DNA of 64,000 nt from Streptomyces sp. M92 (GTDB taxonomy: Bacteria > Actinomycetota > Actinomycetes > Streptomycetales > Streptomycetaceae): NCBI RefSeq assembly GCF_028473745.1, contig NZ_CP101137.1, forward strand, positions 6,951,501 to 7,015,500. Reading direction: 5' to 3'. Of the stretch, positions 9,021 to 16,706 are shown one piece after another. The position numbers and the translations under genes are program-made. The number at the start of each line of letters is the position of its first letter. Positions within the stretch are counted from its first letter, which is position 1. Below the pieces are notes generated by a model that was given only the letters and a program-made list of their open reading frames with translations, was not told the origin of the DNA and did no database searches.

Positions 9021-10283
9021 CTAGCCGAGCCGCGACTCCAGCTCCGCGACGATCTCGTTGACACCGATCGCGGTCTGCTCGCCGGACTCCATGTCCTTGA
9101 GCTGGACGACGCCCTCGGCCAGGTCGCGCTCGCCCAGGACCAGGGTGTAGCGGGCGCCGGAGCGGTTGGCGGCCTTCATCGCGGCCTTCAGGCCCTTGCC
9201 GCCGTAGGAGAAGTCGGCGGCGACGCCGTTCTTGCGCAGCTCGGTGACCTTGGCGAACAGGATCCGGCGGGCCTCCTCGCCCAGCGGGACCGCGAAGACG
9301 GAGGTCGCGGACGGGATGTCCAGTTCGATCCCCTCCGCCTCCAGGGCGAGGACGGTGCGGTCGACGCCGAGGGCCCAGCCCACGGACGGGAGGGACGGGC
9401 CGCCGATCATCTCGGACAGGCCGTCGTAGCGGCCGCCGCCGCCCACCGCGGACTGCGAGCCGAGGCCGTCGTGGACGAACTCGAACGTCGTGCGGGTGTA
9501 GTAGTCCAGGCCGCGCACCAGCTTCGGGTCGTCCTCGAAGACGACGCCGGCCGCCGTGATCAGTTCGCGGACCTCCTCGTGGTACGCCTTGCAGGCGTCG
9601 CACAGGTAGTCGCGCAGCAGCGGGGCGTCGGTGAGCTGCTTCTGGACCTCCGGGCGCTTGTCGTCCAGGACGCGCAGCGGGTTGATCTCCGCGCGGCGCA
9701 GCGTGTCCTCGTCCAGGTCCAGGCCGCGCAGGAAGTCCTGGAGCGCGGCGCGGTAGACCGGGCGGCACTCCTTGTCGCCCAGGGAGTTGAGGAGGATGCG
9801 GAAGTTCCGCAGGCCCAGGGCGCGGTACGACTGGTCGGCGAGGATGATCAGTTCGGCGTCCAGCGCCGGGTCCTCCGCGCCGATCGCCTCGGCGCCGACC
9901 TGGGAGAAGTGGCGGTAACGGCCCTTCTGGGGGCGCTCGTAGCGGTACTGCGAGCCGGAGTACCAGACCTTGACCGGCAGGTTGCCCGCCTTGTGCAGGT
10001 TGGCCTCCAGGACCGCGCGCAGCACGGGAGCGGTGGTCTCCGGGCGCAGGGCGAGGCGGTCACCGCCCTTGGTCTCGAAGACGTACATCTCCTTGGTCAC
10101 GATGTCGGTCGACTCGCCGACACCGCGCGCGAAGAGCTCGACGTTCTCGAAGCCGGGCGTCTCGATGTAGCCGTAGCCGGAGTTGCGCAGCGGGGCGGCG
10201 ATCGCCTCGCGGACCGCCAGGAACTTGGCGGAGTCGGGCGGCAGCAGGTCGTACGTGCCCTTGGGGGCCTTGAAGGTGCTCAC
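9021..10283 (-). CDS. hisS: histidyl-tRNA synthetase
   Basis: 420 aa class II synthetase. Class II motif 2 region ([16 protein letters not shown]), the histidine-binding [12 protein letters not shown] motif and the [11 protein letters not shown] motif 3 region are visible, followed by the HGTP anticodon-binding domain. I chose the GTG at 10281-10283 ([15 protein letters not shown]) because the protein then begins as in homologues; the ribosome-binding site is weak (AGGA further upstream). It follows the metallo-hydrolase gene by 11 bp, so the two are likely cotranscribed. Confidence 0.97.
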
Positions 10284-13441: not shown

Positions 13442-15985
<2,544 letters not shown>

Positions 15986-16098
15986 GAGGACTCCTCGTGC
16001 GCGATCCGGGTCCCCCGGTCAGGCTCCGGAGTCCCCATGGTAGCGATCCCGCACCCCGGGATCGCCTTCAGGCCGATGTGAGGGCCGTCAACCCGTGA

Positions 16099-16124
16099 AA
16101 CGCCTGGGGCGGGCGCCGGATTCC
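16099..16124 (-). promoter_or_regulatory. sigma-R type promoter of relA
   Basis: On the minus strand GGAAT (16124-16120), exactly 18 bp, then GTT (16101-16099). This is the sigma-R (thiol-oxidative stress) consensus GGAAT-N18/19-GTT. A relA promoter under sigma-R control has been reported in S. coelicolor, which supports the call. The promoter overlaps the apt terminator stem-loop. Confidence 0.8.
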
Positions 16125-16143
16125 TCCGGGCCCGCCCCAGGCG
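16101..16143 (-). terminator. terminator after apt
   Basis: Arms CGCCTGGGGCGGGC (16101-16114) and GCCCGCCCCAGGCG (16130-16143) form a perfect 14-bp stem with a 15-nt loop, starting 14 bp after the apt stop. It should limit read-through from the sec-apt operon into relA. Confidence 0.75.
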
Positions 16144-16157
16144 TGCGGCAGGTGCGC

Positions 16158-16706
16158 TCAGACGGTGAGCAGCGCCTTCAGCGGCGCTCCGGCCAGGGCC
16201 GGCTCCAGACGGGTCCGGCCGTTCAAAAACCCCAGCTCCATCAGGACGGCGAGGCCGCAGACCTCGGCACCGGCCCGGCGGATGAGCTCCACCGAGGCCT
16301 CGGCGGTGCCACCGGTGGCGAGGACGTCGTCGACGACCAGCACGCGGTCGCCCGCGCTCAGGTCCTCGGCGTGCACCTCGATCTCGGCGGAGCCGTACTC
16401 CAGGTCGTAGGCCTGGCTCAGGGTGGCTCCGGGGAGCTTGCCCGCCTTGCGTACGGGGATGAAACCGAGGTCGGCCCGCAGCGCCACGGGGGCGCCCAGG
16501 ATGAAGCCCCGGGCCTCCAGGCCGACGACCTTGGTGGCGCCGGTGTCCCGGGCCACCTCGGCGAGCGCGCCGGTGAGCGCGGCGAAGGCGGCCGGGTCCG
16601 CCAGGAGCGGGGTGATGTCCTTGAACACCACGCCCGGCTCCGGGTGGTCCACCACGTCCCGGATGCGGCTGAGCAGCAGCTCCGTGAGGTCGGTCGTCTC
16701 GGTCAT
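16158..16706 (-). CDS. apt: adenine phosphoribosyltransferase
   Basis: 182 aa. Converts adenine and PRPP to AMP in purine salvage. Start ATG 16704-16706 overlaps the secF stop (ATGA). The substrate segment PEPGVVFKDITPLLAD and the PRPP-binding loop VLVVDDVLATGGTA are intact, as is the EARGF motif. Length is normal for the family. Placement secD-secF-apt-relA is the standard actinobacterial order, linking purine salvage with (p)ppGpp metabolism. Confidence 0.97.
   Translation of the reverse strand: MTETTDLTELLLSRIRDVVDHPEPGVVFKDITPLLADPAAFAALTGALAEVARDTGATKVVGLEARGFILGAPVALRADLGFIPVRKAGKLPGATLSQAYDLEYGSAEIEVHAEDLSAGDRVLVVDDVLATGGTAEASVELIRRAGAEVCGLAVLMELGFLNGRTRLEPALAGAPLKALLTV

Follow-up and report, generated by a model that had tools for sequence, protein, structure and literature searches.

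The apt and relA genes lie one behind the other on the minus strand of the analysed window, a stretch of 64,000 nucleotides from Streptomyces sp. M92, with SecF upstream of the pair (gene identities by NCBIfam check; Table 1). The gap between them measures about 172–175 bases (apt stop at 16158) and contains a hairpin whose stem starts 13 bases past the end of the apt stop codon (16158 to 16144). Read from 16144 to 16100, the stem consists of 15 bp, a one-base bulge at 16115 and a further 5 bp; an 86-nt fold of the element reached -58.4 kcal/mol (z -5.48), and none of 200 shuffled sequences folded equally well. An exact GGAAT-N18-GTT match, with a spacer of exactly 18 nt, was found on the same strand at 16124–16099, in register with the hairpin such that GGAA forms the loop, the spacer the 3' arm and the GT of the -10 element the closure of the stem. 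A preliminary description of this DNA had placed a sigma-R signature before relA, with its -35 in the loop and its -10 at the foot of a 14-bp apt terminator stem. Folding and motif matching bear out the signature and its placement, and a stem is present, its length being 20 bp with one bulge and not 14 bp.

Table 1. Coordinates of features at the apt-relA locus (positions in the window)
Feature	Position	Strand	Remarks	Basis
apt (adenine phosphoribosyltransferase)	16158..16706	-	upstream gene	NCBIfam check
Hairpin, proposed apt terminator	16100..16144	-	20 bp, one bulge (16115)	fold and conservation
GGAA apical loop	16121..16124	-	first four bases of the -35	fold
-35 GGAAT, SigR-type promoter	16120..16124	-		exact motif match
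-10 GTT	16099..16101	-	G and first T are the outermost two stem pairs	motif match and fold
Predicted zone of the apt 3' end and of a SigR-dependent relA 5' end	16091..16098	-		inferred from usual distances
relA (RelA/SpoT family)	13442..15985	-	downstream gene; TTG start at 15985	NCBIfam check

In the remainder of the gap, the last 57 bases before relA (15986–16042; TACCATGGG ... GAGGAG) hardly vary across Streptomyces, and a short stem with the loop AGCCTGA is predicted there. A search of Rfam at a lax threshold returned four matches far under the gathering scores, none of them credible, and no credible match for 15986–16042 either. A dyad with largely conserved arms, GCGATCC-N9-GGATCGC (16043–16065), lies directly upstream of TACCAT and is possibly the operator of a second relA promoter.

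Distribution of the hairpin and the promoter motif in Streptomycetaceae

A sample of 210 Streptomycetaceae apt loci was assembled from 80 named loci, the 30 best others, 40 from 16 other genera and 60 from further Streptomyces, many of them picked by likeness to this apt with the result that close relatives of this strain are over-represented. Six loci without a relA match, eight in which the relA match started too deep and two with runs of N were dropped, leaving 194 with both ends mapped and 190 distinct apt-relA gaps. A site was scored as GGAA[TC]-N17-19-GTT. For a strong hairpin, GGAA had to be at the centre and the fold energy no higher than -26 kcal/mol; a separate apt terminator was a hairpin whose energy was -30 kcal/mol or lower and whose start fell no more than 70 nt beyond the apt stop. 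The site was embedded in a strong hairpin in 95 gaps, present without a strong hairpin in 40 and absent from 55, the corresponding numbers being 91, 40 and 28 for the 159 Streptomyces gaps and 4, 0 and 27 for the 31 gaps from other genera of the family. A separate apt terminator was absent from 86 of the embedded loci and present in nine, whilst one adjoined apt in all 40 loci having the site without a strong hairpin (Fisher p 6e-26, kinship ignored). When nine pairs of thresholds were tried, between 0 and 3 non-embedded loci were without a separate terminator. A DNA tree of 135 loci contained 13 switches between the embedded and non-embedded states, and independent pairs drawn from it mostly ran 5 in the same direction against 0 in the opposite one, with a median p of 0.0625, above 0.05; an earlier protein tree had given 3 to 0. 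The direction of the independent pairs is consistent and the formal test underpowered. This distribution suggests that the overlap persists mainly where apt has no other terminator. In other families, relA was downstream of apt in 18 of the 20 loci fetched and the embedded form was found in none. Three loci from one other actinobacterial family (L293, L294, L298) carry a SigR-like GGAAT or GGAACA ... GTGTT shortly before the relA match, with no hairpin over the site.

An exact GGAAT-N18/19-GTT match upstream of a gene is the form expected of a SigR promoter, the consensus being given as GGAAT-N18-19-GTT (PMC9205884, available text), and here the site is conserved independently of the hairpin. 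Where the site lay precisely at -139 of relA and no strong hairpin was present (29 loci), GGAATC and GTT.C were prominent and the spacer was mostly free; since the letters of the site are held in these loci, the promoter appears to be kept without the hairpin. The site therein behaves like a real promoter motif and is a predicted SigR target in this strain. The accessible part of PMC4921905 lists RelA as a member of the S. coelicolor SigR regulon, and SigR control of relA is hence already in print, by citation in that paper; under thiol stress SigR is set free from RsrA, according to the text available from PMC5472188. GGAA[TC] occupied the loop of 113 gap hairpins, and in these GTT was found at a distance of 18 (79 hairpins), 19 (16) or 27 (13) and rarely elsewhere. 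The separate apt terminators had GGAA[TC] at the loop in one of 40 cases and the full site in none, indicating no general preference for such loops among the apt terminators of Streptomyces. Other lineages carry the loop GGGAACA with CGTT at the foot, resembling the SigH form quoted in the available portion of PMC2375139.

The hairpin is stable, GC-rich and close behind the apt stop codon, as expected of a terminator, and its stem bears compensatory changes, with several Watson-Crick pair types (GC, CG, AT and TA) found at the same 3'-arm positions in different members of a set of 95 loci themselves chosen for having a hairpin. It is kept in place in several Streptomyces with a damaged site, namely GTC for GTT (L024), GAAAT (L092), GGACC (L093) and GGAGC (L101), which argues that the hairpin is maintained independently of the promoter. 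The tail, TTTCACGG, is T-poor, which explains why a simple terminator scan of the window reported nothing at 16100–16144, and with a T-rich tail absent the element is not classed as a canonical intrinsic terminator. Published maps of Streptomyces 3' ends, as far as their available text extends, describe weak T enrichment (PMC6742748) and more read-through at ends lacking U (PMC8269248), and these two properties make leaky termination, with some apt-relA read-through, likely. A strand bias of G-U pairs, as would be expected if RNA folding were selected, was weak (33 loci versus 18, p 0.049, kinship ignored) and was rejected as proof of selection at the RNA level. In the comparison across loci, in which a separate terminator accompanied all 40 sites lacking a strong hairpin, the hairpin behaves as a terminator of apt would, and termination of apt is predicted there. 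The hairpin appears to be lost only where it is replaced and the promoter seems able to decay while the hairpin stays, a combination pointing to two separable functions on one piece of DNA.

Chance level and further cases in this genome

The window contains one GGAAT-N18-GTT against 0.24 expected, and at least one was found in 21 of 100 shuffled sequences; the motif alone is near chance and was rejected as evidence. The joint arrangement, with the site in register with the hairpin, is judged from its conservation to be far beyond chance. A background sample of 1.66 Mb from the same genome comprised the window and 80 stretches of 20 kb, and contained 724 strong hairpins, or 1448 when both strands are counted. 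Of these 1448 oriented hairpins, 22 had GGAA[TC] at the loop (GGAAT in nine, GGAAC in 13), and four, the apt-relA element among them, had the full site at a spacing of 17–19, a number to be read with full sites over-represented since 76 of the 80 stretches had been picked for a GGAAT-GTT site. Of the 788 GGAAT in the sample, 13 were enclosed by a hairpin with an energy of -28 kcal/mol or lower, as were three of the 42 GGAAT sites at spacing 18, the three being those before relA, a pirin-like gene and hflX. A nearly perfect 24-bp hairpin at L222:9510-9560, whose loop carries GGAAT followed by GTT at a spacing of 20, is likely a chance look-alike.

The second SigR-type promoter motif within a terminator-like hairpin (L242:9724-9850; C1 about 1909756) precedes a gene that we take to be pirin-like from its sequence. 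A perfectly paired hairpin starts soon after the end of the preceding frame at 9724 and has GGAAT-N18-GTT (L242:9756) at its loop; in contrast to relA, its tail falls within the spacer, and two compensated versions of the stem were observed. Thirty Streptomyces loci of the pirin-like gene were compared: 23 passed at -22 kcal/mol (21 of them at -29 or better), five had the site without such a hairpin, four of these with another upstream hairpin by the rule applied, and two had no site. The pirin rule is looser than that for relA and another hairpin was also present in seven of the 23 passing loci, making the replacement pattern less clean than at relA. A GGAAT-N18-GTT was also observed at L274:9241 (C1 about 3731242) before a gene presumed from its sequence to be hflX; the SigR site was present in 30 of 30 loci, 12 of the 30 passed the hairpin rule and the stems were irregular, and hflX is perhaps a third embedded case.

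Shared use of the element and alternative readings

The observed anatomy, conservation and replacement pattern are best explained by dual use of the DNA, a reading we regard as probable, in which the hairpin in the apt RNA ends apt and the same duplex serves as the SigR promoter of relA; in many Streptomyces species a 45-base element appears to combine both roles. During growth the apt transcript would fold into the hairpin and end there, and under thiol stress SigR would start the relA transcript at the same spot, a few bases further on. Each function would be under its own selection, the loop, the stem foot and the distance of 18 or 19 nt preserving the promoter and the arms being free to change together while pairing holds. 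Lineages with a second apt terminator could drop the hairpin and retain the promoter. The preliminary description had likewise proposed that the same DNA ends one transcript and starts the other; comparison across loci, with a separate terminator in 40 of 40 non-embedded cases and the site kept without the hairpin, favours that proposal at the level of sequence. As both complexes would need the same DNA, apt transcription and SigR initiation should be momentarily exclusive, and this exclusion is probably a tolerated cost in the apt-relA gap rather than a purpose.

Two forms of coupling would give the overlap a role of its own. As the preliminary description suggested in proposing mutual interference, polymerases terminating at the hairpin might cover the SigR promoter, or apt transcription might be blocked by SigR holoenzyme already bound, and the overlap would then adjust apt relative to relA. 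The coincidence of terminator and promoter base for base and the embedded form in 95 of 190 gaps are in keeping with such interference, but the promoter occurs without overlap in 40 of the 190 loci and by inference works there, so relA control does not require interference, which we consider unlikely. Alternatively, core polymerase might stay on the DNA after termination of apt, be captured in place by free SigR and start relA. Single-molecule work, in the text available, describes retention after termination, sigma pick-up and reinitiation at nearby promoters (PMC6978380), and coupling at a sense promoter near a terminator is raised in the corresponding part of PMC6978322; here terminator and promoter coincide, with a second such case before the pirin gene. 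The single-molecule basis is, however, E. coli polymerase with sigma-70 and not SigR, and the separated arrangement in 40 loci also speaks against a hand-off, which we hold to be distinctly improbable. Both forms of coupling are plausible in principle, the 40 separated loci arguing against any that is obligatory; as these loci have the parts separated and the promoter kept, simple sharing of the DNA is the most likely reading.

GGAA is one of the stable GNRA loops, and the window's single motif is by itself close to the chance level, as would suit a GGAA loop and GTT tail that are merely common in terminators with no promoter present, but the scarcity of GGAA[TC] loops in separate apt terminators (1/40) and genomic hairpins (22/1448), the peaks of GTT spacing at 18 and 19 and the 40 loci keeping the site without the hairpin make this very improbable. 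Equally remote is a reading of the inverted repeat as a cruciform in the DNA, or as the operator of a protein, that covers the promoter and is no terminator. The long palindrome centred on the -35 and the weak G-U strand bias would suit such a reading, but the arms vary in sequence with pairing preserved, unlike an operator, and the hairpin is absent only where apt has another terminator.

The dual-use element shares GGAAT-N18/19-GTT with SigR promoters of Streptomyces and SigH promoters of Mycobacterium (PMC9205884, PMC2375139), unlike which it has a terminator over the promoter, an arrangement not mentioned in the available parts of these papers or of PMC4921905. It shares a strong GC stem after the stop codon with Streptomyces hairpin terminators, in which weak T tails are usual (PMC6742748) and U-lacking ends occur (PMC8269248), both according to the text available; unlike in those, both loop and foot are here held by promoter elements. 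In bidirectional terminators, as described in the accessible text of PMC8269248, one piece of DNA also serves two transcripts, these being opposite-strand transcripts that both end, whereas here one transcript ends and the next begins on the same strand. In the work on post-termination recycling and reinitiation (PMC6978380, PMC6978322), again by the portions available, a terminator and a nearby promoter could likewise share polymerase, but the two are separate and here they coincide. No account of a promoter-terminator overlap was found by title or abstract start in the literature searched, most subscription papers lying outside that search.

A broader proposal, that terminator-embedded ECF promoters form a recurrent class in Streptomycetaceae (relA, pirin and perhaps hflX) and that free SigR there captures, in place, the polymerase leaving a housekeeping terminator, is improbable; if true, the steady traffic of a neighbouring gene would feed a stress promoter and termination would become a step of polymerase delivery. 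As a caution, promoter and terminator maps can fall on the same bases. The arrangement is natural, conserved and repeatedly separated; as some species have the overlap at this gene and others lack it, post-termination polymerase recycling, so far studied on built templates, would become testable in cells. Through this common stretch of DNA, control of a stringent-response enzyme would be linked to thiol stress.
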